In this document: one piece after another, positions 6,212 to 21,912 of the stretch | Position numbering within the stretch: the stretch's first letter is position 1 | Layout of the letters: each line of letters starts with the position of its first letter | DNA from: a virus | DNA: 36,554 bases | Direction: 5' to 3' (one strand) | Virus record (IMG/VR): IMGVR_UViG_3300009194_000027 | Span: 1 to 36,554 of that record | Position numbers and translations under genes: made by a program | Notes under the pieces: model-generated | What the model was told of the DNA's origin: nothing | The model's database searches: none | What the model saw: the letters and a program-made list of their open reading frames with translations, nothing else

Positions 6212-7300
6212 TCAACTATCCCGTGCGATGACGTTATCTTCATTAACGTAGGGGGTGGGGATGAGTTGTCCGGTGAGTCCATTCGCTTCGATGATTTTGG
6301 GGGCCAGCGTTTTCATCTTCCGACAGTGTTGTTCCACCAACCCTAACCGTTTGTGGTCCCGAATGGTTTTCCGACACCCATTGCAGATACCGAACAAAGG
6401 ACACCCAAAACAGCTCTCTTTCATTGCGGTCAGTTCGGGGTCAGACTGTAAGGGAAAAAACTGCTCGCCCTTCATTTCAGCATCGAAGTCGATACGGTGA
6501 CTGTCGTCGTCTGCCAGTGCCGGACAACTGTAGTATCGCCCTGACGGCTGCAGGGTACGGATTCCCTGATCACACGTCCGTGACAGAGGACACACGGTCA
6601 ACTCATCCCGCAGTTTTCGCATCATCTGCCGTGTGTTATGTTCCCATTGTGCCAGTCCTCGTTCCCACAACTCTACGTAATGGGCGTACATGTCGGCGAG
6701 TAAATAAAGGTGGCCCTCGTTGCCCATGGTGATGGATTTGTATTGAACGACAGGTCCCGATGCCATGGCGTAGTTGACTTTACTGTCAACGCCCATCTCC
6801 TTGGCTAGTTCCACCGTCTGGACCACCGTATCAGCGTTATGTTCATCGATGACCGCGATAAAGCCTGGACGATATCCACACACTTCAAGTAACAAGTCGG
6901 AAACCTTCCAGAACTCACCAGCGGTAAAAGGTGTTAAATCCCCCTTCAGTCGTTTTCCGCCGAATTGGAAACTGGTCATCACAAAGAATCGTGGATGTTG
7001 AAACACCGCACGCCAGCGTTCGGGATTTTTATAGAAGGGCCACAAGTTGCTGGTGATTGATACCGTTGCCGGTAAATCGTTATCGTCGAGGAACGCCAAT
7101 AGCTCGGTATAATACGCTGGTGGCATCATCAGTGGATCACCACCGTTGACAATGATGGTCCTAGTTTCCGGATAACGCAGCAGAAACCGTTTGACCTCTT
7201 CAAGCGGTAGTTCATCCCCGGCGTCGTCACTTATCGAGGTACTCGAACAAAACGTGCATTTAAAATTACACCGCTCTGTGGGTTTTATTACCAGATCCAT
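6212..7300 (-). CDS. Radical SAM enzyme with SPASM-type C-terminus (rSAM 1)
   Basis: This 362-residue protein is a radical S-adenosylmethionine enzyme. Cys11, Cys15 and Cys18 form the CxxxCxxC motif (CNFKCTFC) for the 4Fe-4S cluster that cleaves SAM, and NGGDP is the glycine-rich SAM-binding motif. The C-terminal third has many Cys in a SPASM/twitch-like arrangement (CPLSRTC, YYSCPAL, then CFGCPLFGICNGC and a final HC), which would hold auxiliary clusters. SPASM enzymes commonly modify ribosomally made peptides or proteins. It starts at ATG 7300 with a GAGG site, 6 bp after the upstream gene. A second rSAM gene, a hydroxylase and a Cys/His-repeat fibre share the operon, so I infer that it modifies the fibre. 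Confidence 0.88.
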   Translation of the reverse strand: MDLVIKPTERCNFKCTFCSSTSISDDAGDELPLEEVKRFLLRYPETRTIIVNGGDPLMMPPAYYTELLAFLDDNDLPATVSITSNLWPFYKNPERWRAVFQHPRFFVMTSFQFGGKRLKGDLTPFTAGEFWKVSDLLLEVCGYRPGFIAVIDEHNADTVVQTVELAKEMGVDSKVNYAMASGPVVQYKSITMGNEGHLYLLADMYAHYVELWERGLAQWEHNTRQMMRKLRDELTVCPLSRTCDQGIRTLQPSGRYYSCPALADDDSHRIDFDAEMKGEQFFPLQSDPELTAMKESCFGCPLFGICNGCRKTIRDHKRLGLVEQHCRKMKTLAPKIIEANGLTGQLIPTPYVNEDNVIARDS

Positions 7301-7306
7301 GTGACC

Positions 7307-8389
7307 TCACGTTCTATTAACCACCCAAGCTGGGCGAATGACTGGTTGTGCATTGCGTTTGCACTGTTGCACCCAAAATAAAAGGTTCATGGTGAATGTC
7401 CGCATTTCTCGGCCTGGTACCAACAACGTGAACCGATCGACCTGACGAAACCCATTCAGGTACCCGCTCAAAAGCTCAGTATCGTCCTGGATCTCCAGTA
7501 AGGTGACGGGTAATAGCAGTTCCTGGAGGTTGGCCTCAGGATCTATGATGGGGGCGAATGTCTTCTGTAGACGTCGCTGATCATGAATGTACTGAGCCTT
7601 GAATTCCGCCAGAAAATCGGGATCGCTCAACTGATCGTACAGCTCAGGACCGACACCACTCAGGTGGAGACCGTCAATCTCACGCAGGGGGTCTTTACCC
7701 GGCCCGGGTTTGGTGGGAGCACCACCCAAGATGGTTTCAAGATGTGCTGAGTAATACAGAAACCGCAGCCGATTATCCAGGGAGGTCACGATGTTGGTTA
7801 ACACACGACGTAAACGTTCGCGCACTTCCCCAGCCACATCAGCCATGTCGGTATCGCCCGAAAGGAACCCGATCAGCTGGTATTCCAACGGGAGATTATC
7901 CTTGTGGGCGGCCACGAATTCCACGACGTCGGAGCGAACCGGGACATCTACATGATAGTGACGTTTAAGGCGGTTTTCGAGGTAGCTCGCACGTTGCCAG
8001 TCAAATTCGGGTTCGGAAAAGCTCCGGTTTATATTGAAGATGAAGTACAGTTCTTGAAGTTGGGCATAAGTTACCTCAGGAAACACGTGTTTCATCCAAA
8101 ACACAAAGAGTCCGACCAGCACATCGTCGTCACAGTAAATAACCACCTTCTGATCAGTCTGTGCTAACTGCGGGAGTAACTTGGGAAACTCTTCGGCAAT
8201 AAACGCTTCGCCGTCCTGAGTATGGCGCCACGTCTTGGGAAGATCAGTGATTCCCAGCTCTTTCGCCAGGATATCGGTTGACGACCCCAGATATTCGTCG
8301 GCTGCCTCCTTCCCTACCACAATCCGGTCGTGCTCGCCGTTAAGATTGTCGATATGATCAAGATAAATGCGGTTAAACAGCTGAAACAT
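7307..8389 (-). CDS. Unknown 360-aa protein of the modification operon
   Basis: I do not recognise this protein. It is soluble, with no signal peptide or membrane segment. Visible features are a hydrophobic strand with acidic residues (VVIYCDDDVLVGLFVFW, about residues 85-100), a long helical middle with many Arg and Leu, and a C-terminal part ending in a Trp/Arg-rich stretch. I start it at ATG 8389, preceded by AAGGAACTCG, rather than at an upstream in-frame ATG; it overlaps the end of the preceding gene by 17 bp, suggesting coupled translation. Its place between the fibre and rSAM 1 makes it a candidate accessory, scaffold or recognition protein of the modification system. No function can be read from the sequence. 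Confidence 0.7.
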   Translation of the reverse strand: MFQLFNRIYLDHIDNLNGEHDRIVVGKEAADEYLGSSTDILAKELGITDLPKTWRHTQDGEAFIAEEFPKLLPQLAQTDQKVVIYCDDDVLVGLFVFWMKHVFPEVTYAQLQELYFIFNINRSFSEPEFDWQRASYLENRLKRHYHVDVPVRSDVVEFVAAHKDNLPLEYQLIGFLSGDTDMADVAGEVRERLRRVLTNIVTSLDNRLRFLYYSAHLETILGGAPTKPGPGKDPLREIDGLHLSGVGPELYDQLSDPDFLAEFKAQYIHDQRRLQKTFAPIIDPEANLQELLLPVTLLEIQDDTELLSGYLNGFRQVDRFTLLVPGREMRTFTMNLLFWVQQCKRNAQPVIRPAWVVNRT

Positions 8390-9104
8390 TATCGAGTTCC
8401 TTTTGTAATGCGGCAATGTCTGCATGGATGAGCTCACCAGATTCCACCATGGACTCCGGGTCCTCGTTATAAACATGACTTATGACACAAACGGGATTAT
8501 CCGAATTAACCCAGTAGTTTTCTAACGTGGAGCCTTTGAACACCGGTTTATCGAAGAAGTGCGGATAGTAGCTCAACCGGGTAGGGTCGGGTTCCAACAT
8601 CACCAAGGCGAGGTCGTCATAGGCCAACAACTTAACAAAGTTGATACCCCGCAAATCGGTGGTGGGGTTCTGAGGAAACATCGTTGCATCGACACCGGCC
8701 TCACGGGCACTCGCGTAGAGTCCCAATGACTCGACCAGACTCAACCATTGAGTGATAGTCTCACGCATATCGGAATCGACAATGATGTCGTGGTAATCAA
8801 GACCTGACGCTGGCTGGAGTCCCTTGATCTGCATGAGCAGTTCCAAAACAGAGATTTCCAACTGACGGAAGTCGTGCAGCATGGGAGATTGCATATACGC
8901 GCGAATCAATGCGTAAGCCCCCTCCACGGTATCGAAATGAAACTCTATGGTAACGCCGAGATTGGTCAGGTACGTCAGGAGGGCTTGGGGGGATAACGAC
9001 GATTCGTCCACATTAATGACCACCTCGTCCTTAAAGCCGTTCATGATAATGGACTTAAGGGTAGCGCTGGGGATCGGGGCGGTCGTGGTGATCGGTTCTG
9101 ACAT
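8373..9104 (-). CDS. Unknown 243-aa protein of the modification operon
   Basis: I do not recognise this protein. The N-terminal ~60 residues contain a beta-alpha-beta-like pattern (DEVVINVDESSLSPQALLTYL, then VTIEFHFDT), which could be a small recognition domain. The middle is helical and the C-terminal region is aspartate and tyrosine rich (RLSYYPHFFDKP). It starts at ATG 9104 with an AGGAGT site 9 nt upstream, 20 bp after the fibre gene, and overlaps the next gene by 17 bp. Being directly downstream of the putative substrate, it could bind or guide the fibre during modification, but this is inference from position only. Confidence 0.7.
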   Translation of the reverse strand: MSEPITTTAPIPSATLKSIIMNGFKDEVVINVDESSLSPQALLTYLTNLGVTIEFHFDTVEGAYALIRAYMQSPMLHDFRQLEISVLELLMQIKGLQPASGLDYHDIIVDSDMRETITQWLSLVESLGLYASAREAGVDATMFPQNPTTDLRGINFVKLLAYDDLALVMLEPDPTRLSYYPHFFDKPVFKGSTLENYWVNSDNPVCVISHVYNEDPESMVESGELIHADIAALQKELDNVSAV

Positions 9105-9124: not shown

Positions 9125-10072
9125 TTAGGGATTCAGACGTTGCTCGATGCCATCAACGCGGTCACTGAGCGATCGGTGGTGGCGATGCAGTTCCTTCAGG
9201 GCGGCAGCTAAAAGTACCGTTACCTTGGCATAGTTGACCGTTAAATAGCCGTCCCGGTGTTCTTCGACCACATCCGGCATGATGTGGGCCAGATCCTGGG
9301 CGATAAACGCATGCTCGCGACGGGGTTTAAACCGCTCTCCCGAAGGATCTATCTGGCGCGCAGTGGTATTCCATTCGTGAGTGACTGTCCGGAGTTCCTC
9401 CAGCTTTGCTAATGCTTGAGGGATGTCTTCGAAGTTCATCTTCAGTCGCTCATCAGAATCGGTGCCGTCGCCGGTCCCTGGGCTATCCCCATGACAAGAA
9501 TCATGACAGGAACTGTGGCAGCTGGTGTGACAAAAGGTCTTACTGATACTGACTGTTTGGTTACGGATCTTACTGACCTCGCCACATACCGCCTTCACCC
9601 AACGGATCGTCGCTGGCCAACTGATATCGCCTTTACCTGCATTTGGATCTTCCGCAGAGGGGTCGGGAACAGACCGCTTATACCCACTGTTTAGATGTCC
9701 GATACCTGAGGTATTGGCAAACACGATGTAGTAGGTGGGTCCCACCCGTGAACCACCGTCACTACTTCTAGGGTTATTGTATTGATAGCGCATGTAAATA
9801 CTAACGCGGCGGATGACCGTGTAAGCGGCGGCGTGTGCAAGTATCTCATTACGTACCTGGGCTGAGCGGATGTCCCCACCAAAGCTTGCTGCACTGGGAC
9901 TGGAGTAAACACCACTGGTTGACCCACCGAACAGACTACTGTAAGTTGAGTTAGCCAGTCCATTGTAGTTGGGAGGCCAATTGTTGGTCCCCCAATTTAT
10001 ACCGCCATTAAGGTAGTTCCTAATGTAGGTATTGTGCATATTGACGATATCTTGGGGACGAATGTCTGCCAT
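9125..10072 (-). CDS. Tail fibre protein with Cys-His-x-Ser array and S74 intramolecular chaperone
   Basis: This 315-residue protein has three parts. Residues 1-165 are a Gly/Ser/Asn/Tyr-rich fibre-like region with aromatic strands. Residues 181-196 are CHTSCHSSCHDSCHGD, four Cys-His units spaced by four residues, followed by a short Gly/Asp linker. From residue 206 (SDERLK) to the end is a Peptidase_S74-type intramolecular chaperone: SDxxLK start, EHAFIAQDLAHIMP, a YLTVNYAKVTVLLAAALKEL helix and a C-terminal coiled coil. S74 domains trimerise fibres and cut themselves off at their N-terminal end, which would leave the Cys-His array at the distal tip of the mature trimer. It starts at ATG 10072 (GGAGT site) between rSAM 2 and the unknown genes. 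Likely substrate of the operon's enzymes (inference). Confidence 0.85.
   Translation of the reverse strand: MADIRPQDIVNMHNTYIRNYLNGGINWGTNNWPPNYNGLANSTYSSLFGGSTSGVYSSPSAASFGGDIRSAQVRNEILAHAAAYTVIRRVSIYMRYQYNNPRSSDGGSRVGPTYYIVFANTSGIGHLNSGYKRSVPDPSAEDPNAGKGDISWPATIRWVKAVCGEVSKIRNQTVSISKTFCHTSCHSSCHDSCHGDSPGTGDGTDSDERLKMNFEDIPQALAKLEELRTVTHEWNTTARQIDPSGERFKPRREHAFIAQDLAHIMPDVVEEHRDGYLTVNYAKVTVLLAAALKELHRHHRSLSDRVDGIEQRLNP
9485..9532 (-). repeat. Four-unit Cys-His-x-Ser coding array
   Basis: Sixteen codons encode CHTS-CHSS-CHDS-CHGD. The units use different synonymous codons (TGT/TGC, CAC/CAT, AGC/TCC/TCT), so the periodicity is kept at the protein level rather than reflecting a recent DNA duplication. 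The array sits about 10 residues before the S74 domain. Confidence 0.9.
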
Positions 10073-10083
10073 GATTTACTCCA

Positions 10084-11130
10084 TCAGGATAGGTTTAAAA
10101 TAGGAATATGACGCGTGTGGTCGTATTGTTCGTCACGAACATACCGCAGGAGATGTTTGAGACCGCCACACCGATCGCCCTGCCAAGGAAGCTGATGGCA
10201 GTCGCCTCCACACAGGTGAAACACATCGCATTGCAAACATTGGGGATGAAAATCCAACTCGTCGGCGATTTCTTCCAAACGTCCATCGCTGGTAAGGAAC
10301 TGATCGACGCCATCGTTGAGATGAGCGAAGTTATTTGATCCTGCAGTATTAGGACAACCTGCTAGGGAACCATCAGCGTTCATGGTCACTAGGTTCTGTT
10401 CACAGTTACGGCAGTTGGTATCCGTTTTTACGGTCTGCGTTTGAAGCTTTTTACGGATTAGGTCTAGGGTGACGATACTGAACGACCATTCCGTTTTACG
10501 TTCTTGATAACGTCTGTACACTTCAACGAACCACTGGTCTTGGACCTCATTATCCGGAAATATTTCCGGATTACGTTCGGCATTGCCGTCTAAGGTTAAC
10601 CGTTCCAATCGAATGCGTTCTGGACCGAGACGGTGCATTTCATCAAGAAACGCATCAATATCCATATCGACCAAGGCTTTGTTCACACTCACGAATAAAC
10701 AGCATTCCAAACCGGAACGTTTAAGCAGCGCGAGGTTGTATTCCCATAACCGCTTCTGAGTTGCAGTTTCGAATCGGGTATCGACGTCCCAGCTGGTACC
10801 GACTGACCCTAGACGTTTGAGAAAGTTTAACTTTCGTTCGTCGAGCTTTATTACGAGGTTGGTGGTGATACTAATCCCAATATTGGGTCGTCCACTGTAG
10901 GTATCGACAAAACGTTCCAAATCTTCCATCGGTGCCAAGAACGGTTCTCCACCATGTAAGATCAACCGGTAGTGTTCATCGGGACCGTAGTGATCCATAA
11001 AGTCATCAATCCATCGACTCGCCGCATCGACATCCCATCGCACCTTACTGCCATTACGACCGCTCGTAAAACAGTGGTCACAATGTAGATTGCAGGTATC
11101 TGACGTCTTTACATATATCGCTTTTGACAT
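10084..11130 (-). CDS. Radical SAM enzyme with SPASM-type C-terminus (rSAM 2)
   Basis: This 348-residue protein has the radical SAM motif CNLHCDHC (Cys13, Cys17, Cys20), a canonical HGGEP SAM-binding motif and a SPASM-like C-terminal Cys set (NCRNCEQNL, LAGCPNTAG, then CLQCDVFHLCGGDCHQL and RCGGLKHLLRYV). This is the arrangement of peptide-modifying enzymes such as sactionine or cyclophane synthases and anaerobic sulfatase-maturase relatives. It starts at ATG 11130, 9 bp after the hydroxylase gene, and its stop is 11 bp before the fibre start, so enzyme and proposed substrate are neighbours. It is clearly distinct from rSAM 1, suggesting two separate modifications or a paired system. The bond it makes cannot be read from sequence. 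Confidence 0.9.
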   Translation of the reverse strand: MSKAIYVKTSDTCNLHCDHCFTSGRNGSKVRWDVDAASRWIDDFMDHYGPDEHYRLILHGGEPFLAPMEDLERFVDTYSGRPNIGISITTNLVIKLDERKLNFLKRLGSVGTSWDVDTRFETATQKRLWEYNLALLKRSGLECCLFVSVNKALVDMDIDAFLDEMHRLGPERIRLERLTLDGNAERNPEIFPDNEVQDQWFVEVYRRYQERKTEWSFSIVTLDLIRKKLQTQTVKTDTNCRNCEQNLVTMNADGSLAGCPNTAGSNNFAHLNDGVDQFLTSDGRLEEIADELDFHPQCLQCDVFHLCGGDCHQLPWQGDRCGGLKHLLRYVRDEQYDHTRHIPILNLS

Positions 11131-11139
11131 GAAAGTCTC

Positions 11140-11805
11140 TCAGCTGATGGTGTAGCCTTCCCGAAACCAGCTGACCAACACAAATTTATCAGTGGTGTGT
11201 GTGGCTAATGAAGAATGGAGGGTCAAGCTGTCGGGCGTGGTCATCGGATAAGAAAAGAAGAGTAACGTACCGAGGCGTGGGGTTATACTGAGTCCCAGAC
11301 GATCAAAGACGGTTGCTCCTTCTCCATCGGTATCGTTAAGGTACAGAACGACTGTGGCGATCCGTTGGCCACCCGTGGTCCCGTGGCGCTCGACTAGCGT
11401 GTTCTCTGCAAAGAAGTCACAGTGTGGTTTAAACTCTTCGCCGGGTCGGTAATGTAAGAAATTCGGATTTTCGGTCTTAACCGTGGGCCACAGCGTTAAA
11501 CGCTCGATCCGTTGCGAGAGTTCCTGCAATAGAGGATCGTCCTCGACGGAAAGAAAACAGCCTCTGGAGGTTCGTCGTGGCGAAGGTCGTTCTACCCCAT
11601 CGTCCCCAATTGTTACCGACGGGACTGCCTGGTCGCGATACCGTTCGATAAGGTACTCACATTCTTCCTTGGTGGCGAATCCATCAATCAGTGCAATATG
11701 GGGGTCTTCCATCAATAAGCGCAGTTGGCAAGAGACGGTATGTTTCACCATATCCAGTCCAGTTTGGCTGATTATAGGTGTGTTCCGGGGTGGTTGGTTG
11801 CTCAT
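11140..11805 (-). CDS. 2-oxoglutarate/Fe(II) oxygenase, prolyl 4-hydroxylase-like
   Basis: This 221-residue protein should hydroxylate a side chain using O2, Fe(II) and 2-oxoglutarate. It shows the prolyl-4-hydroxylase core: YRPGEEFKPHCDFF with His128 and Asp130 as iron ligands, GGQRIATVVLYLND, GEGATVF, and the distal iron ligand His197 in LTLHSS followed by Lys207 in DKFVLVSWFRE for the 2-oxoglutarate carboxylate. The length suits a single-domain enzyme. It is the first gene of the seven-gene operon, 9 bp before rSAM 2, with a TATAGGGAGA promoter-like motif about 56 bp upstream. The ribosome site is weak. I infer a protein substrate, possibly the fibre, though phage 2OG enzymes can also act on nucleic acids. 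Confidence 0.88.
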   Translation of the reverse strand: MSNQPPRNTPIISQTGLDMVKHTVSCQLRLLMEDPHIALIDGFATKEECEYLIERYRDQAVPSVTIGDDGVERPSPRRTSRGCFLSVEDDPLLQELSQRIERLTLWPTVKTENPNFLHYRPGEEFKPHCDFFAENTLVERHGTTGGQRIATVVLYLNDTDGEGATVFDRLGLSITPRLGTLLFFSYPMTTPDSLTLHSSLATHTTDKFVLVSWFREGYTIS

Positions 11806-11913: not shown

Positions 11914-13035
11914 TTACACCCACTGGGCCGGGAATACATGGCGCCATGCCCCGCCAGCGTAGATATAAACATTCTGGCCAGAGGTTTTAATTGCGCCCTC
12001 AGATGCCACGTTCAGACGAGGGTACCGATAATCGAACCAGTTACTTTCAGAGGCCCGCCAGATGGCACTATGGACGTTCGCCGGAGTCATGTAGGTTGTG
12101 TCGTTGTAGTTGCCACCCGGAACACCCGCCTGTTCGGCCGTGTAGGTCGACGCCGGCGCGTAGTTCGCAACCTTCCCAAGACCGACCTGTGACTTGGTCA
12201 CGTTATGGGGATTACTCTTATTGGCTTTGTGGGCATAAAACTCTCGACCCAGATGGTAGTCAATCCCCTCCACCAGTCCAGCAACACTCACGAAACGGTT
12301 AGTAGCTGAACCACCCCGAATCTCAGTCAACGTCGCGGTAGGGTAATTATCGACAAGTCCCAGCCCCACCTGGGCTTTGGTAACACGATGGGGGTTGGTG
12401 TAGTCGGCTTTATGGTCTTTAAAACGGGAATCTAGGTCTTGGATGAGCGCAAGGTTATCTTCGTAGAGCTGCTGAAAATACCGGCGCATTTCGTCAAAAG
12501 CTGACTGATCACCGACCATCACCGCTTGAGTAATTCGTTCCAGTTGGACCACGAGGTACTCAAAACCATAAAGTTCCCACAACGCATGGAGGTGTCCCCC
12601 AGGTGGATATACACTCGGTTTACCGATGATGTTTGCCCACTCAACTGGCCGTGTATCATCCGCCAGGGTTTGGATCACCTGCTCCAGGGCATTGATTGAT
12701 TGCGCATAGTCCCCACCCACACACTGATAATCAACATAGACTTCAGTGCTAACATTGGGGTTCGTGACAACAACCGCACCACAAACTTCAAGTCCTGACC
12801 GCGTGGTCGCTTCCTCGTAGAGGTACGTTGAGATGTAGTCGGTATGGGGGGTTAACTTCGTCCCACTGGCATCTCTAACAACCAGACCTTCGGTATAAAA
12901 GCTACCCTGATCGAGCACGAATACCCGCATCCCGTCTCGAGCATTATCCACCAAAGAGTGAGGCTCTGAGATAATCAGGTTATCGGGACTGGTCCCCGTG
13001 AGGTCCAGTGGGTATTTTTTCAGTATAGGTGTCAT
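11914..13035 (-). CDS. Tail fibre protein with NPHxVTKxQVGLG repeats (short form)
   Basis: This 373-residue fibre protein has an N-terminal baseplate-attachment-like domain (residues 1-165), a short helical stretch (residues 165-210) and two phage tail-fibre repeats, NPHRVTKAQVGLGLVDNY (residues 214-231) and NPHNVTKSQVGLGKVANY (275-292). These match the Phage_fiber_2 type seen in long tail fibres. The C-terminus ends in an aromatic beta segment (GAWRHVFPAQW). The N-terminal domain resembles that of the next gene (LVV.D..GTK..., YQ.VGG, a PV.WA.I segment and PP..H), so the two are paralogs that probably bind the same site. It starts at ATG 13035 with a GGAGG site. Confidence 0.85.
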   Translation of the reverse strand: MTPILKKYPLDLTGTSPDNLIISEPHSLVDNARDGMRVFVLDQGSFYTEGLVVRDASGTKLTPHTDYISTYLYEEATTRSGLEVCGAVVVTNPNVSTEVYVDYQCVGGDYAQSINALEQVIQTLADDTRPVEWANIIGKPSVYPPGGHLHALWELYGFEYLVVQLERITQAVMVGDQSAFDEMRRYFQQLYEDNLALIQDLDSRFKDHKADYTNPHRVTKAQVGLGLVDNYPTATLTEIRGGSATNRFVSVAGLVEGIDYHLGREFYAHKANKSNPHNVTKSQVGLGKVANYAPASTYTAEQAGVPGGNYNDTTYMTPANVHSAIWRASESNWFDYRYPRLNVASEGAIKTSGQNVYIYAGGAWRHVFPAQWV

Positions 13036-13085: not shown

Positions 13086-14948
13086 TCAAGTCAGTTGAGC
13101 CGTGGCGTTGTCAAACTCCGCAGCCATGTCGGCCATCATGGTATCAATATCGGCAAACTTCTGCTCATATAAGAGAGGAAGCGTAACCGGTGTGGTTGGG
13201 TCGGACAACACATCCTGCAGGACAGGGAGAGAGGGCTCGTCAATCCATGTTTCATCGGTGTCCACGTAATCTACGGGAATGATGTTTAGATGTTCCAGTT
13301 GTCCTGAAGACTTCACCCACACACTCTGGGTGCCATCGGCGCCCAGTGTCGTTACCAGTTCTAAGTCAGAGGTGACGCCATTTAACACCTTGGCGGTGAC
13401 TGCGTCTCCTGGTTCACTGAGGGTCAAATGAATAAGTGCTATTTCACCATTAGTGACATGACCACTTATCATGAACGCCACCATACCCGACGGTAGGGGC
13501 GTACCATCCCCAGCGGTCATAGTGGGTCGCCGAATAAGTCGTAAATATTTACCGGCATTTCCACCATTGATCGGGAACGAGAAAACCCGGAGGGCCGTCT
13601 CCAACACTTCCCGCTTGTATTCAAGGGGAGTGCGGCCCTCGAACAGCTTAGTGTCGGCTGCCTGACCGGCGAGAATGGCATCTGTCAGCTGGGGCTGGTC
13701 TAGTCCAAACGCCAAAGAACTATTCTGAGCCGTACCACCAAGCGGGAGGTATCCGGTCAATAAAGTATTGATCTCGGTTTCTGTAAGCGCTCCCAAATCA
13801 TCCGCAGTCAGATTATGTGGGTTATTGTAGTCATTGATGTGTGCCGTGAGAGGCTGTACTGCCCGTACGTCGATAGACGCTGCGGTGGTGTAGGGTGACA
13901 TAAAAGCGGTGTCAATCACCCCTGCCTCGGCGTCTGCCAAGGTGGCCATCCCATAGTTGGGGACGTTACCCAACCCGACTTGTTCTTTTGTCACCCCTGT
14001 TGGGTTTTCTTCCGTACCTGAAAAGAAAGGCGCGATGCTGTCTTGATAGAATTGATCGATCGCATAGCCGACACCTAACGGGGTGATATATTGATCCCCT
14101 GCCACCATGGCTCGCGCCGTGGTTTCATCAGCGATGGTGTAGTTCTCTACATTACCCAGGCCCACTTGGAACTTGGTCACGTAATGTGGGTTGTCGACAT
14201 CACTAAGATGATCTGCGTATCCTGCCCCTACGCCATTGGTGATTTGAAGTTCGACTGCTCGTGGTGACATGAATAGGTCATCACGTACACCGGCGATGGC
14301 GTCGACATCACTGGCCATCCCATAGTTGGGGACGTTACCCAACCCGACTTGCGTTTTGGTGACTTGGTGGGGGTTACTTCGACTGGAGATATGGTCGAGG
14401 TTTGTACCTTCGTCTGTCAGTGAAATCGCATCAGCAACGCGACCTACCTCATCTACGACTTCCTGGAAACCAATCAACGTAGAAGCTTCTTGATCGTGTT
14501 CGACCGGCGGAAAAGCCGCCGGTAAGACATCGATCTCGGCCCACGTCCGGACCAACGGATTGACGGATTTATTCGACAGTTCCTCGAGGATCGCTTGATC
14601 ATCGAATCCCCACTGACCCCCAACCGTTTGGTAAGTCAGTGACACAACACCTGTAATGGAGCGTTTCAAAAACCGAATAGACCCCGCAAGTGCCTTTCCG
14701 GTTTCCGTCATTGCTTCAACGAAATGATGCCCAACAACATAATCTATGCCTTCGACATATTTAGTGCCGGTGGCGTCATCTTTTACAACCAGGGATTTAG
14801 TAAAAAATGGGGCAGCCTTGGGGATGATAAAATAATAATCATCACGACCCGGCGTTTGTAGTACTTGGAGTTCATCGACAATGCGACACCCCGGGTTATT
14901 GCCGTAAGGGTCAAATGGATAAAGTCCAGTGGTGGAGACAGTGGCCAT
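13086..14948 (-). CDS. Long tail fibre protein with NPHxVTKxQVGLG repeats
   Basis: This 620-residue fibre carries an N-terminal attachment domain (residues 1-165) related to that of the downstream fibre, three clear repeats (NPHQVTKTQVGLGNVPNY at 192-209, NPHYVTKFQVGLGNVENY at 253-270, NPTGVTKEQVGLGNVPNY at 315-332) and a degenerate fourth (NPHNLTADDLGAL at 376). Each repeat is followed by an Asp/Ala-rich segment with MSP or ITP near its end, so the full repeat is about 62 residues. The C-terminal 200 residues form a separate beta-rich domain. It starts at ATG 14948 with AGGAG and is divergent from the gene at 15043. Confidence 0.88.
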   Translation of the reverse strand: MATVSTTGLYPFDPYGNNPGCRIVDELQVLQTPGRDDYYFIIPKAAPFFTKSLVVKDDATGTKYVEGIDYVVGHHFVEAMTETGKALAGSIRFLKRSITGVVSLTYQTVGGQWGFDDQAILEELSNKSVNPLVRTWAEIDVLPAAFPPVEHDQEASTLIGFQEVVDEVGRVADAISLTDEGTNLDHISSRSNPHQVTKTQVGLGNVPNYGMASDVDAIAGVRDDLFMSPRAVELQITNGVGAGYADHLSDVDNPHYVTKFQVGLGNVENYTIADETTARAMVAGDQYITPLGVGYAIDQFYQDSIAPFFSGTEENPTGVTKEQVGLGNVPNYGMATLADAEAGVIDTAFMSPYTTAASIDVRAVQPLTAHINDYNNPHNLTADDLGALTETEINTLLTGYLPLGGTAQNSSLAFGLDQPQLTDAILAGQAADTKLFEGRTPLEYKREVLETALRVFSFPINGGNAGKYLRLIRRPTMTAGDGTPLPSGMVAFMISGHVTNGEIALIHLTLSEPGDAVTAKVLNGVTSDLELVTTLGADGTQSVWVKSSGQLEHLNIIPVDYVDTDETWIDEPSLPVLQDVLSDPTTPVTLPLLYEQKFADIDTMMADMAAEFDNATAQLT

Positions 14949-17107: not shown

Positions 17108-20100
17108 TTAGCTAATTTCGACATGTTCGTTGTACCGTTGTGGGACGGTAATGTTGCTGGGGTCGATCACGCAGACATCTGCCTGATTGAATGCCCCATG
17201 GGTGGCGCTGAAATGGCTGATGAAAAACAGCTGTCGAATCTGATTCATCTCCAACATCTGGTTGATGAAAGGGATTAAGTTCAATCGATGCTGTTCATCA
17301 AAGGTGCTACCAAACTCATCGAGATACAGCGGCATCTCTTCGAGTTTTAAGAACTTCATGACCAGAAGCTTGAAGGCAAAGTTGATGATATCTCGCTGGG
17401 ACGCCGACCCCCGACTGATGTCTTCCGGCATGACAGCGCCATTATTGACATCCAGAGGGAACTTATAGTTCAGTTCATCCTTTTCCACCTGGGAGGGCAA
17501 TACCTCCATCGGGTAGGTCCAGATTTCGGCGATGACAGCATTGATCATCTTCACCACACCCTGCATGAAGCCCATCAAATACCGACCAATCAGCCCATCG
17601 GTAGGGGATAAGGACTTGACCAAGATGTGATAGTCGGTCTGCGCTTGTTTGCTCTGTTCGTGTTGGAGTTCCAGATCCTTCAATACCCCTTCACGTAACT
17701 CAATGCGCGACAGTTGCTCCTGTGTCTGCGCCAGCTGCATCTGGGTTTGTTGGGTTTCTTCTCCGATGGCTTTCTGGAACAAAGCGTCCCGTTGCGTTTC
17801 GGTGTCGCCCAAGAAGCCCTCAATGTCCGTCGCCACTCGGGAGAGATCTTCACGCAGAGTCATCACCTGTTCTTGAAAAGAACGCATTTCCTGATGGCGT
17901 CGATGGAGGCCCCGTACCTCATTGGTGAGCGAGTCTATCTGATCCTCCAGTTCTTTACGACGGGCGTCCTGTTGGGTCATCGCGTGGCGGTCAATGGCCT
18001 CAACATACCGCAGACGATGCTTAAGGACATCGCGTTCCTGACAAAGGTCCTGACGCTCCAGCGTGAGCTGCATGGCATCAAACCAGGCAATCGCCGCATT
18101 CGCGTGACGGCGCGGTTGGCGTGTCATTACTTGGGATTCAATGCACACATCCCAGACGGGCTGGAACATTGGACTATCATTAACCAGCCGACGGAACTGG
18201 CGAACATACCCCAGATAGTCGTCATAAGCTTCTAAATACTCCCGATCCTCCTTGAGCTGTTTGTCAACGACGTCAATACGGTTTTGGGTTTCCGTTTTCC
18301 GCATCTCCAACTGGGTGATTTCTTTCGGGTCCACCCCCGGCTGGAAGTGATGCTGGCAGTTAGGACATTGAATGGTCTCACAACCTTTCATGCGCGATAG
18401 TCGAGAAAGGAGGGAGGTGAGTTCAGCGTCCAGTTTCTGACGTTGTGCTTGGAACGCCTCTACCCGGTCTTTTACTTCAATACCCTTCGCTGAACTGTAA
18501 TACCCTTCAGCGTTCTCCGGAAAGGTCTGCAGTAACGTTTGCCAATCATTAAACACCGATTGCAACAACTCGTGAGGGTTGCGATCTGCAGGGAGTTCCA
18601 CCAAAGGAAACATTCCGTGATAGCCCGCAATTCGTTTACCCAGTTGTTCCTGTTTTTGCTCAAAGGACTGAACAGTACCACGGAGGGTGGCAATCTCTTC
18701 TTCTGATAACACCACATCACGAGAAGGGGCTTGTTGAATTAACTGCTGGTGATCCTCCTGGAGCTTCTCGAGTACGGCCTGCTGGCGCTGGTACTGTGTC
18801 GACACCGTCTCAATCGCCTCAGAAAGCCCTGTGAGCGTTCCTACCCCCCACTCCGGGGGTAAGGTGATCTGTTGGGAAAGAAGACGCTGTGCCTGCCTTG
18901 TGAGACGTTGTAGCCGCTGTTGGAAGTCATGACTCGATGAAAACGGCGCAGTGACGTTTGGCTGACGCAGGGTGAACAGGGAATCCAGCTTATCAGTAAG
19001 GACGCCGACCCGTTTACGCAGCTGGGCGACCTCGCTGTCATCAGGGAGGTCTTGGTTCTCTCGCGCCATCCGTTTATTAATGTGTTTGATCACCCCCTGC
19101 TGGTCACGATGGAGAGAACGCGACTTGTTGTATACGTCAAAAGCGTACTTTAGATCCACCGGGGATAGTTTGGTTAACCACTCACGACGTTTGGCGGTGG
19201 TCATATCGGTGAATTTGGTAATACCGATCAAGAGCTCATGGATTTCACGGGTCAATCCGAAGTGTTCTTCTACTAATTCTTTTTGTACCGCCATGGTGCC
19301 TTTGTTATTGAGTACCTCACCATCTATTTCAAACGTATGGTGCCCGGTACCGCTGTTGTACTCCGAGTACAGTTTGTACCGCCGCCCACGATGGGTCAAG
19401 ACAATAGACTTACTCCCACCTTTAGCAAACTGACGATGGTTGGTGGGTAACGGAGTAAGTTCCTCTAAGATGCTGCTGTTATGCGTTACGACAAAGTTAT
19501 CTGTCACATAAAGACTATCAGGATGATCGATGGAAATACATTGTGCTTCCTCGATACCGTCTGGCTCAATGGACTTAATTCTAAGTTTTAGGATCTGGTT
19601 ATACTGACCGTTATCATTGGCTCGCTCTTTTTTCTTAGGAAGGGTGAACAACTCCGATGGTTTCTTATAGCGAATATTGACGTTGTACGCCAGTCGTCCC
19701 GGAACACGTTCGCCTTTACTATTGGTAAACTTTGTCCGTTTCTGACTGATCTTTGCAAGTCCCCCTAGGGAGCGAACCAGATACGCGACGTGCTCTGCCA
19801 AGGTGTGACTAACCGTACAGTAGCTCGACGTTGACCCTTTACCGATATAGCCGTCGGTATCCATGAGGCCCTGGAGGAGTTCTAAACGCTGGCGCCGTGA
19901 TGCCAGTAGATAATCTTTAGGAATCGATTTATCCCAAGACCGTTTATACCCTAACCCATATTCCCGCAGGGCGACCATGTGGTGATTCACACGGATGTTG
20001 TTGTGACCTCTAAGTTCAGTGTCTTCGTTGGTAACAATACTGTACGTTAAACACTTATCTGGTACTACATTCCGCACCTTCAATTCAAGTCCCTTCCTGA

Positions 20101-20674
20101 GTCGTTTTGAGACTTTCTCGAAGATGAACTCTTCCGGGTTGGTTATCACAATCGATCCGTCAATACAGCCATCTCCTAGGATAACCCCCATGACGTACGG
20201 ATCAACCGGAAGCTCCTTATCTTCCCCGCCCTCTGCATCGATGAGGTCCACCCACAGGAGGTGGCCTCTAGCAGTGCTAAGTTTGTGGATGATGTCTTCC
20301 GTGGTGATCACTCTGGGAACAATGGGGTAGACACTCCCTCCATGGTAAACCGACCACAGATGATCTCCAGTTGCTCGAGCAGTGCGTCCGTCAGCAAACG
20401 TGATCTTGTAGATTTGCTTCTTGCCTTGGGGAAATACACCGTTCACTTTCGTTGTCGTACCGTCTTTGGCAATCACCTCGGTTCCGATTTTCATTTCCCC
20501 CATGGGTTTCCACCCACCGGGGACTTTAACCCAACTATCCAAAGGCTGGGCTTTACCTGCACCATTTGAGCCGATAATCAGCTGCATATGGCTCTTCGGA
20601 TAGATCGCTATCCGTTGGATGTTGGAGAGCAATAACCGTTTATATTTCTCCAACACAAATTCTTCGATGACCAT
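17108..20674 (-). CDS. SbcC/Rad50/gp46-like recombination ATPase precursor interrupted by an intein
   Basis: This is the ATPase subunit of a DNA end-processing nuclease complex. The Walker A motif GSNGAGK is split by an intein (19478-20551); joining the exteins restores GSNGAGKSSILEEL. Then come long coiled-coil arms with a CPNC zinc-hook-like motif (residues 770-773 of the precursor), and a C-terminal lobe with the ABC signature SRGSASQRD, Walker B LYLDEFGSTFDE and H-loop ISHF. The mature protein would be about 830 residues. The start is uncertain: I use ATG 20674, about 11 nt after AAAAGGA; ATG 20686 and GTG 20710 are in frame. The usual nuclease partner (SbcD/gp47) is not in the window. 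Confidence 0.88.
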   Translation of the reverse strand: MVIEEFVLEKYKRLLLSNIQRIAIYPKSHMQLIIGSNGAGKAQPLDSWVKVPGGWKPMGEMKIGTEVIAKDGTTTKVNGVFPQGKKQIYKITFADGRTARATGDHLWSVYHGGSVYPIVPRVITTEDIIHKLSTARGHLLWVDLIDAEGGEDKELPVDPYVMGVILGDGCIDGSIVITNPEEFIFEKVSKRLRKGLELKVRNVVPDKCLTYSIVTNEDTELRGHNNIRVNHHMVALREYGLGYKRSWDKSIPKDYLLASRRQRLELLQGLMDTDGYIGKGSTSSYCTVSHTLAEHVAYLVRSLGGLAKISQKRTKFTNSKGERVPGRLAYNVNIRYKKPSELFTLPKKKERANDNGQYNQILKLRIKSIEPDGIEEAQCISIDHPDSLYVTDNFVVTHNSSILEELTPLPTNHRQFAKGGSKSIVLTHRGRRYKLYSEYNSGTGHHTFEIDGEVLNNKGTMAVQKELVEEHFGLTREIHELLIGITKFTDMTTAKRREWLTKLSPVDLKYAFDVYNKSRSLHRDQQGVIKHINKRMARENQDLPDDSEVAQLRKRVGVLTDKLDSLFTLRQPNVTAPFSSSHDFQQRLQRLTRQAQRLLSQQITLPPEWGVGTLTGLSEAIETVSTQYQRQQAVLEKLQEDHQQLIQQAPSRDVVLSEEEIATLRGTVQSFEQKQEQLGKRIAGYHGMFPLVELPADRNPHELLQSVFNDWQTLLQTFPENAEGYYSSAKGIEVKDRVEAFQAQRQKLDAELTSLLSRLSRMKGCETIQCPNCQHHFQPGVDPKEITQLEMRKTETQNRIDVVDKQLKEDREYLEAYDDYLGYVRQFRRLVNDSPMFQPVWDVCIESQVMTRQPRRHANAAIAWFDAMQLTLERQDLCQERDVLKHRLRYVEAIDRHAMTQQDARRKELEDQIDSLTNEVRGLHRRHQEMRSFQEQVMTLREDLSRVATDIEGFLGDTETQRDALFQKAIGEETQQTQMQLAQTQEQLSRIELREGVLKDLELQHEQSKQAQTDYHILVKSLSPTDGLIGRYLMGFMQGVVKMINAVIAEIWTYPMEVLPSQVEKDELNYKFPLDVNNGAVMPEDISRGSASQRDIINFAFKLLVMKFLKLEEMPLYLDEFGSTFDEQHRLNLIPFINQMLEMNQIRQLFFISHFSATHGAFNQADVCVIDPSNITVPQRYNEHVEIS
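19478..20551 (-). mobile_element. Intein with LAGLIDADG homing endonuclease in the SbcC-like Walker A motif
   Basis: This 358-residue in-frame insertion begins AQPLDSWVKVPGGW and ends FVVTHN, followed by extein Ser. It has the splicing blocks: N-terminal block, block B ATGDHLW, and the C-terminal VVTHN with the final His-Asn. Two LAGLIDADG-type motifs, YVMGVILGDG and LLQGLMDTDG, about 106 residues apart, show an embedded homing endonuclease that is probably intact. The first residue is Ala rather than Cys or Ser, so splicing must use the route known for Ala1 inteins, with direct attack by the +1 Ser. Insertion between Lys and Ser of the P-loop places it in the most conserved DNA of the gene, typical for inteins. 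Confidence 0.93.
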
Positions 20675-20706
20675 GGTCGTCGACATCCTTTTATCAAAGG
20701 TATCTA

Positions 20707-20720
20707 TCACTATAGGAAGA
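20707..20720 (+). promoter_or_regulatory. T7-like promoter motif ahead of the spike genes
   Basis: TCACTATAGGAAGA lies 36 bp upstream of the spike start and matches 13 of 14 bases of the core and initiation part of T7-type promoters (TCACTATAGGGAGA); the upstream recognition part does not match. It points to the plus-strand spike/PAAR unit. Confidence 0.4.
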
Positions 20721-20755: not shown

Positions 20756-21646
20756 ATGCAAGTCTCTCAACTTGACCGTTACAGCATCGGGATTGCGGCG
20801 GAAAACAAACCGCTTACTAGCCGTCACCTCAACATCACCCCTGTCGAGGTTCTCTCAGCACTGGATGGCGAAATTAACTTTGCCCCTCAGGACAACACGG
20901 TCAGTGGGGTAGATGCCGACGGCAACCGCTACGAAGTCAAAACTACCCAGGACATGACACTGACGGCGGAATGGCTACCTCTTTCTAGTAACCGCGTCAC
21001 TCCACCCGACATCCGCCGTGGAGAACTGGTGGAGATCTATCGCGTCGCCGATAGTGATCAGTTCTTTTGGCGCTGTATGGGTCTTCGAGATGACCTACGG
21101 CGACTCGAGACTGCCATCTTTGCATTTAACGGATCTCCCGATGAAGGAAGCAAAGGCATTGATTCCGCGACGTGTTACTTTATGGAAGTCTCTACACACA
21201 AAAAGACCATCACTGTGAGTACCTCTCAATCAAATGGGGAACCTTTTGGTTATACAGCTCAGATCAATGCAGGGGAAGGACAGGTGGTATTAGAAGACAC
21301 TATTGGTAATTCCCTCTTTCTCGACTCCGGACGTGTCTTCTGGGAGTTGATCAATGCTGACCAGACCCATCTTCAACTCGACCGCACGAACATCTACGGA
21401 AAAGCGGACAACAACATTGAGTTTCGTGCCGGTAATGACGTGTATTGGGAAGCGGGTAACAACATGTCCATTGAGGTGGGGAACAACTACCGGATGAATG
21501 CCGGAAATAACAGCAGTATCAAAGCGGGTAGTACAGCGTCCATGGAAGGGGGGTCCTCCGCGACACTGAAGTCCGGGGGATCTACATTCACATTGACGCC
21601 AGGCGGTACGACACTGAAAACACCCAGTTTCTCGGGAGGTGCGTAA
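20756..21646 (+). CDS. Baseplate central spike protein (gp5 C-terminal-like beta-helix)
   Basis: This 296-residue protein probably forms the trimeric membrane-piercing spike under the tail tube. Residues 1-120 look like an OB-fold/adaptor region (VEIYRVADSDQFFWRC). Residues ~200-285 contain short repeats of about eight residues with recurring Gly-Asn (RAGNDVYW, EAGNNMSI, EVGNNYRM, NAGNNSSI, KAGSTASM, EGGSSATL), the pattern of T4 gp5-type or VgrG-type triple-stranded beta-helices. No lysozyme domain is present, unlike T4 gp5. It starts at ATG 20756 with a GGAGG site, and its stop shares a base with the ATG of the PAAR gene. Confidence 0.85.
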   Translation: MQVSQLDRYSIGIAAENKPLTSRHLNITPVEVLSALDGEINFAPQDNTVSGVDADGNRYEVKTTQDMTLTAEWLPLSSNRVTPPDIRRGELVEIYRVADSDQFFWRCMGLRDDLRRLETAIFAFNGSPDEGSKGIDSATCYFMEVSTHKKTITVSTSQSNGEPFGYTAQINAGEGQVVLEDTIGNSLFLDSGRVFWELINADQTHLQLDRTNIYGKADNNIEFRAGNDVYWEAGNNMSIEVGNNYRMNAGNNSSIKAGSTASMEGGSSATLKSGGSTFTLTPGGTTLKTPSFSGGA

Positions 21647-21912
21647 TGGGCAGAGGTGTTGCTTTGGTTGGAAAGGACACCGCGGGCGGTGTCCATCTGG
21701 GGGGAGGTCAATCCACTTTCGAGATCGAGGGGTCGTTAGTGGTGGTCAAAGGCGACCGGGTGGCGTCCCATGGCGACTCACCCCACTCGTCGGCGGTGAT
21801 GGTAGAGGGATCGTCGTGGTTTACCTGGAATGGTATCCCTGTGGTATTTGAAGGCCATAAAGCCAGTTGTGGGCACACCAGTACTGGCAGTGGGTGGTTT
21901 TCTATTGATTGA
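21646..21912 (+). CDS. PAAR-repeat spike tip protein
   Basis: This 88-residue protein has the length and features of PAAR proteins, which form a sharp metal-binding cone on the end of the central spike. These include a short hydrophobic start (GRGVALVGKDTAGG), a beta hairpin with VVVKGDRVASHGDSPHS, an FEGHKASCGH segment providing His/Cys zinc ligands, and a TGSGWF end. It is translationally coupled to the spike gene (TAATG overlap), and a bidirectional terminator follows. The spike plus PAAR pair strongly supports a contractile tail. Confidence 0.9.
   Translation: MGRGVALVGKDTAGGVHLGGGQSTFEIEGSLVVVKGDRVASHGDSPHSSAVMVEGSSWFTWNGIPVVFEGHKASCGHTSTGSGWFSID

Follow-up and report, generated by a model that had tools for sequence, protein, structure and literature searches.

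Short repeated cysteine motifs encoded beside a radical SAM (rSAM) enzyme are found in the SPASM-type RiPP systems (ranthipeptides/PapB, sactipeptides and cyclophanes), where the number of repeats is variable. Maturases of the PapB type form a thioether from Cys to Asp or Glu (PMC9413430). The His-Xaa-Ser system, in which HxsA occurs with HxsB and HxsC, combines His-any-Ser repeats with two rSAM enzymes. Among the proteins of phage fibre ends, the gp38-type distal adhesins of T-even phages are small, are encoded near the fibre genes and are supposed to be located at the tip. Other fibre-linked proteins, such as endosialidase and T5 pb1, carry an S74 domain at the C-terminus, with a Ser followed by a Lys five residues on, and the cut that T5 pb1 makes between Thr1263 and Ser1264 is proposed to expose the end that binds (PMC4690869). 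In T4 gp37, residues rich in metal ligands lie near the fibre end, and the iron sites of the tip are formed from HxH motifs (PMC11705849).

The locus described here lies in an IMG/VR virus record of 36,554 bases (the window, meaning the whole stretch of DNA that was analysed), and has features in common with each of these systems. It encodes a CHxS repeat, which we refer to as the array, together with an adjacent rSAM enzyme (rSAM1) and a second one (rSAM2). Unlike the cores of SPASM RiPPs, the array sits C-terminally on a folded, fibre-linked phage protein and not on a small peptide, and rSAM1 falls well short of every named family in score. The unit differs from that of the His-Xaa-Ser system in being four residues long and including Cys; identity with HxsA was rejected, as no HxsA model was found among the matches of 60 array proteins at E values up to 1, and rSAM2 matches HxsC weakly (24.7 bits vs 267.9). 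In contrast to the S74 fibres, the exposed end would be the CHxS array, and the relatives of the window protein lack S74. The array also differs from the gp37 needle in the absence of HxH and in its linkage to radical SAM genes. No similarity in sequence to the gp38-type adhesins was seen.

The array protein and its gene neighborhood

The array, CHTSCHSSCHDSCHGD, is encoded in frame on the minus strand (TGT CAC ACC AGC TGC CAC AGT TCC TGT CAT GAT TCT TGT CAT GGG GAT) within a 315 aa protein, as the first-pass annotation had claimed, although its description as a Cys-His-x-Ser array fits three of the four units and fails for the last, which is CHGD. Each chain contributes four Cys and four His, or by arithmetic 12 and 12 in a hypothetical trimer. 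Two CH units spaced four apart arose in 22 of 200,000 shuffles of the window array protein, and outside the array CHxxCH is absent from every frame of the window. Codons differ between the units, and mixing of codons inside one array was also seen among 206 homologous genes (for Cys in 131, for His in 133, and for serines, AGY and TCN together, in 128), so the motif is held at the protein level, as had been proposed from the window sequence. An origin by chance or from a low-complexity DNA repeat is ruled out by the mixed codons and the negative shuffles. Sites for c-type haem (CXXCH) were also rejected, because CxxxCH recurs in the array at intervals of four residues, which is too dense for haem; a phage protein synthesised in the cytoplasm would not be expected to encounter the enzymes that attach haem.

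The first-pass annotation saw a single protein, which is in fact one member of a phage cassette of several genes. The order of transcription is phrog_13857 tail protein, phrog_2163 protein, 2OG oxygenase, rSAM1, array protein, phrog_20767 protein, a protein without a family match, and rSAM2 (Table 1). The phrog_20767 protein, of which a more distant version occurs in the class-B phages described below, is perhaps a docking or assembly factor. Elsewhere in the window, the P-loop (GSNGAGK...SS) of an SbcC-like ATPase (17108-20710, minus strand) is seemingly split by an intein-like insert, and a LAGLIDADG_3 match (1.5e-5) lies inside this insert. A PAAR-motif protein (21646-21912, plus strand; 1.7e-9) follows a putative central-spike gene (20756-21646).

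An AlphaFold monomer model built with 60 homologs was confident over the N-terminal domain and of low confidence over the array (pLDDT about 44–61), a value equally compatible with a flexible, a modified or a metal-bound repeat. Significant BFVD matches to the window model include the array protein of phage Atu_ph07 and other phage proteins. Three BFVD proteins of 504–660 aa from Myoviridae sp. ctijX18 (A0A8S5USJ8, A0A8S5USJ7 and A0A8S5USV2) also resemble it, with E values of 4e-5 to 3e-4. Fold searches of the PDB with both models gave no significant match, which does not make the fold new. The family of array proteins seems to correspond to phrog_35144 ('unknown function'); a search for a named NCBIfam or Pfam family covering the array found none.

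Table 1. Features of the array cassette in the window.
Feature	Position	Strand	Evidence or remark
Tail protein	13086..14948	-	phrog_13857, 2.1e-150
Virion/tail protein, directly upstream of the cassette	11914..13035	-	phrog_2163, 3.5e-109
2OG-Fe(II) oxygenase, P4H-like; slot held by an HxD...H cupin elsewhere	11140..11805	-	Pfam 2OG-FeII_Oxy_3, 1.5e-12
rSAM1, radical SAM/SPASM enzyme, proposed array maturase	10084..11130	-	Pfam, cysteine pattern, linkage
Array protein, 315 aa, with C-terminal S74 chaperone	9125..10072	-	phrog_35144 match, residues 8-192, 2.1e-7
N-terminal folded domain, residues 1-180	9533..10072	-	AlphaFold pLDDT (block means) mostly 86–98; fold common to other BFVD array proteins
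CHxS array, residues 181-196, CHTSCHSSCHDSCHGD	9485..9532	-	C-terminus conservation across 206 distinct proteins
Gly-rich linker SPGTGDGTD (197-205), predicted C-terminus after S74 self-cleavage	9458..9484	-	Ser206/Lys211; L008 end length
S74 intramolecular chaperone, residues 206-315	9128..9457	-	PF13884, 1.5e-11 (206-269); many tail-fibre PHROGs
phrog_20767 protein, conserved partner	8373..9104	-	downstream of rSAM1 in 77/80 loci
Protein between phrog_20767 and rSAM2	7307..8476	-	without family match
rSAM2, second radical SAM enzyme	6212..7300	-	Pfam, 9.6e-12; 71/80 loci

Relatives in isolated phages and viral contigs

A tblastn search of 50,697 phage records with rSAM1 matched seven records representing six genomes: Pseudomonas phage pPa_SNUABM_DT01, Sinorhizobium phage Phosso, Agrobacterium phage Atu_ph07 (two records) and Burkholderia phages SURPRISE13, FLC6 and FLC8. 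In all six, the gene behind rSAM1 ends with an array (ICHTSCHTSCHSARGRR, YCHTSCHASCHSSRSRR, FCHSSCHASCHNSRSRR and, three times, VCHSSCHTSCHGSRGRR); these genes are annotated as 'hypothetical protein', and S74 is absent from the array proteins of all six genomes. Open-access papers on the carrier phages mention the rSAM annotations and nothing more. The Pseudomonas phage DT01 entry (L002, 8989-18987) has one block with six radical SAM genes and two 2OG-Fe(II) oxygenases.

Viral contigs were searched with an rSAM alignment, from which the best 80 of 380 relatives were kept, and, as a reverse test, with the DNA motif of the array alone. The whole window protein gave no match as an IMG/VR query, and the class-B and marine class-A array proteins gave none by tblastn against isolate phages. 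A scan for runs of at least four units returned mostly unrelated frames, with one locus gained (L330) and possibly another (L379). The canonical motif was found in 257 Gb of prokaryote genomes at 11 stretches, all in MAGs or bins, and these were taken as phage contigs. The family comprises 206 distinct array proteins; a large number of bacterial viruses that have not been cultured, and a few giant isolates, carry the fibre-linked protein. L008 is the relative closest to the window, with an rSAM1 that is 71% identical and an array protein that is 48% identical over the N-terminal domain.

The array is kept in proteins that are 16–54% identical to the window protein. Cys and His are constant, as the first-pass annotation had expected of homologs, and the main run holds between 2 and 6 units. 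Across the 206 proteins, position 3 of the unit accepts 14 residue types, and position 4 is Ser in 578 units, Asn in 31, Ala in 17, Asp in three, Gln in two and Gly in none. Many of these proteins were retrieved with a pattern that itself contained Cys and His, so the invariance of the two residues can be read without bias from the rSAM-anchored set only (best 80 of 380), where the next-ORF arrays have 2, 3, 4 or 6 main-run units; homologs without Cys/His, which would have spoken against the first-pass reading, were sought in this set and none occurred. Two contigs (L009, 11036-11740; L026, 11034-11717) have extended arrays of 66–69 residues, with spacers such as NVPV or NVV between CHxS runs.

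In a second arrangement (class B), two paralogous array genes lie in tandem, each coding for about 127 residues, and no rSAM adjoins them. On one contig (L106), the tandem array genes lie directly behind a tail-fibre-like gene. Other examples are L136 (305-1065) and L118 (8037-8794), and the paired proteins possibly form a hetero-oligomeric tip.

Linkage between rSAM1 and the array

The CX3CX2C cysteines of rSAM1 (C13, C17 and C20) are invariant in six homologs, as are its SPASM cysteines (C243-x10-G254-x4-C259 and C298-x2-C301-x5-C307-x3-C311-gap-C321), which make up the complete pattern known from peptide maturases. The protein matches Pfam Radical_SAM (2.2e-7) and TIGR04085 (32 bits, cut-off 27). 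Among solved structures, the chains closest to it are 8vpo, those of anaerobic sulfatase-maturating enzymes and 5wgg. Assignment to a characterised maturase family (PapB, FxsB, YhhB, DynA or anSME) was rejected, the best being PapB at 55 bits against a cut-off of 340.

The rSAM-anchored set (best 80 of 380) was not selected by the array and so is a fair test of linkage. It contains 71 distinct rSAMs, three of which lie at a contig end, and for 66 of the 68 with room the next ORF downstream is an array; in the two remaining cases the array is about 1 kb further on. In the reverse direction, the motif-only search found rSAM1 at most 1.5 kb upstream of 105 canonical array ORFs, the genes mostly overlapping or separated by no more than 40 nt. 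In class B, where the genes are unlinked, rSAM1 is present elsewhere in 14 of 18 records and, where inspected, is inside a cupin-rSAM1-rSAM2 block; the four records without it are contigs of 18–85 kb that may be incomplete. Because the linkage persists even with the genes apart, the array is most likely the substrate of rSAM1, and the rSAM-substrate reading put forward in the first-pass annotation gains support from both classes. As is expected of a RiPP system, the gene for a protein with a repeated core is linked to that for a putative modifying enzyme. Variation in unit number with constant Cys and His fits the pattern expected if the chemistry is iterated. Neither a leader peptide nor a recognition element was found, and rSAM1 could act on a different cassette protein, with the array being something else.

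Other roles for such a ligand-rich repeat need to be weighed against this linkage. That the array Cys and His bind Fe, Zn or Cu, with the rSAM and oxygenase serving another protein, would agree with the invariance of both residues and has a precedent in the iron-binding tip of T4 gp37. The T4-like HxH needle suggested in the first-pass annotation has the wrong spacing, however, as HxH is absent and the array histidines are four apart (HxxxH), and metal binding explains neither the co-occurrence of array and rSAM1 when their genes are unlinked nor the near-constant Ser at position 4, so we regard it as unlikely. A combination of both, in which the products of the rSAM and oxygenase would become the metal ligands, as in metal-binding RiPPs, draws on the same linkage data and on the Cys/His composition; by this analogy it is conceivable, and we rate it as quite unlikely.

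The oxygenase partner

Modification of the array by hydroxylase-type chemistry, the other enzyme activity that had been suggested, is consistent with the cassette, since 79 of 80 loci have an Fe/2OG-type oxygenase, either a cupin or a P4H-like enzyme, ahead of rSAM1. In 78 of the 80, a cupin with a conserved HxD...H lies directly upstream, and the residues of this iron triad are conserved in at least 90% of 83 cupin partners. In the clade of the window, a P4H-like 2OG enzyme replaces the cupin.

The two enzyme types correlate with the sequence that follows the array. An RxRR motif directly after the array is present in 197 of the 206 distinct proteins. All 164 cupin entries have it, and it is missing from the 2OG entries, of which there are three (the window, and L008 and L103, which are one contig). 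As the 2OG entries form one clade, this is no more than a hint of the tail being read or modified by the oxygenase. The same distribution would suit an array that, with RxRR, is a mere recognition tag or docking peptide for enzymes that modify another part or another protein. Yet the array is kept in members without RxRR, and a varying number of units that each retain Cys and His exceeds the needs of a tag, making such a role very unlikely beside that of a substrate.

The C-terminal tip and self-processing domains

The array forms the C-terminus in all six isolate genomes and in nearly all contigs, and since the RxRR directly past it ends most of the proteins, this is its normal position. Among the ORFs checked, the window protein is the only array protein with S74, so this domain is the exception in the family and not the rule. 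The Pfam S74 match starts nine residues past the array, in agreement with the short distance noted earlier, and the Ser206/Lys211 dyad is intact, with a spacing equal to that of Ser1264/Lys1269 in T5 pb1. The predicted S74 cut before Ser206 would leave a protein ending 25 residues from the array start; L008, which lacks S74, ends naturally with CHSSCHYSCHSSCHGDGPGNGGGV and a stop codon, 24 residues from the array start. In L257, a Hint-type self-processing region follows right after the array (CHWA-CFIRGT; Hom_end_hint, 2e-15), and the gene adjoins an rSAM. That S74 and Hint, which are self-processing domains without relation to each other, both occur at this point suggests that the array must end up free, and together the natural end of L008 and the Hint domain of L257 favor the earlier view that the array is a future tip. 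There are apparently two Hint-type (intein-like) regions past the array of L257 (1-1239, minus strand). The C-terminal part of L109 looked Hint-like by eye and was left out of the count, as Pfam did not confirm it.

That the S74 of the window is an assembly artefact or a decayed fusion that never cleaves, as might be supposed of one such member on a metagenomic contig, is highly improbable given the open frame, the phrog_20767 gene in its usual place downstream, the similar G+C (0.54 vs 0.50), the intact Ser-Lys pair and the linker length shared with L008.

Gene context and the S74 domain suggest that the array protein belongs to a fibre and to the virion; the main text of the phiRP31 proteomics report gave no usable identity.

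Discussion

On the sequence evidence, it is probable that the array is the substrate of the rSAM/oxygenase enzyme set and becomes a RiPP-like modified fibre tip. The array would then serve as the core, where modification takes place, in a RiPP-like maturation system carried by the phage. The protein that bears it, encoded beside tail genes, would present the C-terminal CHxS repeat on its folded N-terminal domain, and the repeat would be modified by rSAM1 and the Fe/2OG-type oxygenase, probably with rSAM2. Radical C-H abstraction is the most likely chemistry, each unit being cross-linked through its Cys sulfur or His to a neighboring carbon. By analogy with known systems, a Cys thioether, a cyclophane-type His-to-Ser cross-link or some other change are candidates for the bond, and the product may be a rigid, chemically unusual tip. 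In the window phage, S74 would aid assembly of the chains, presumably as a trimer, and then release itself by a cut between Asp205 and Ser206, so that the array would become the end of the protein. Contact with the host surface is the most likely role of the finished tip, as suggested by the fibre context and by S74. The full proposal, that a widespread virus-encoded system builds a host-contact fibre tip by rSAM action on CHxS and that S74 or Hint uncovers it in some lineages, we consider evenly poised.

Repeats modified by rSAM enzymes are already known, and a viral fibre-linked protein as the substrate would be new; no description of the array system was found in open-access papers. For a family of SPASM enzymes that is as yet uncharacterised, the array proteins would offer a large natural set of repeat substrates in which unit number varies and the third position is free, and the purpose of these phage rSAMs becomes a testable question. 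If the proposal is true, phages alter their own attachment tip with enzyme chemistry so far known mainly from peptide natural products, and this would explain the clusters of radical SAM and 2OG genes in jumbo phage genomes that have had no assigned function.
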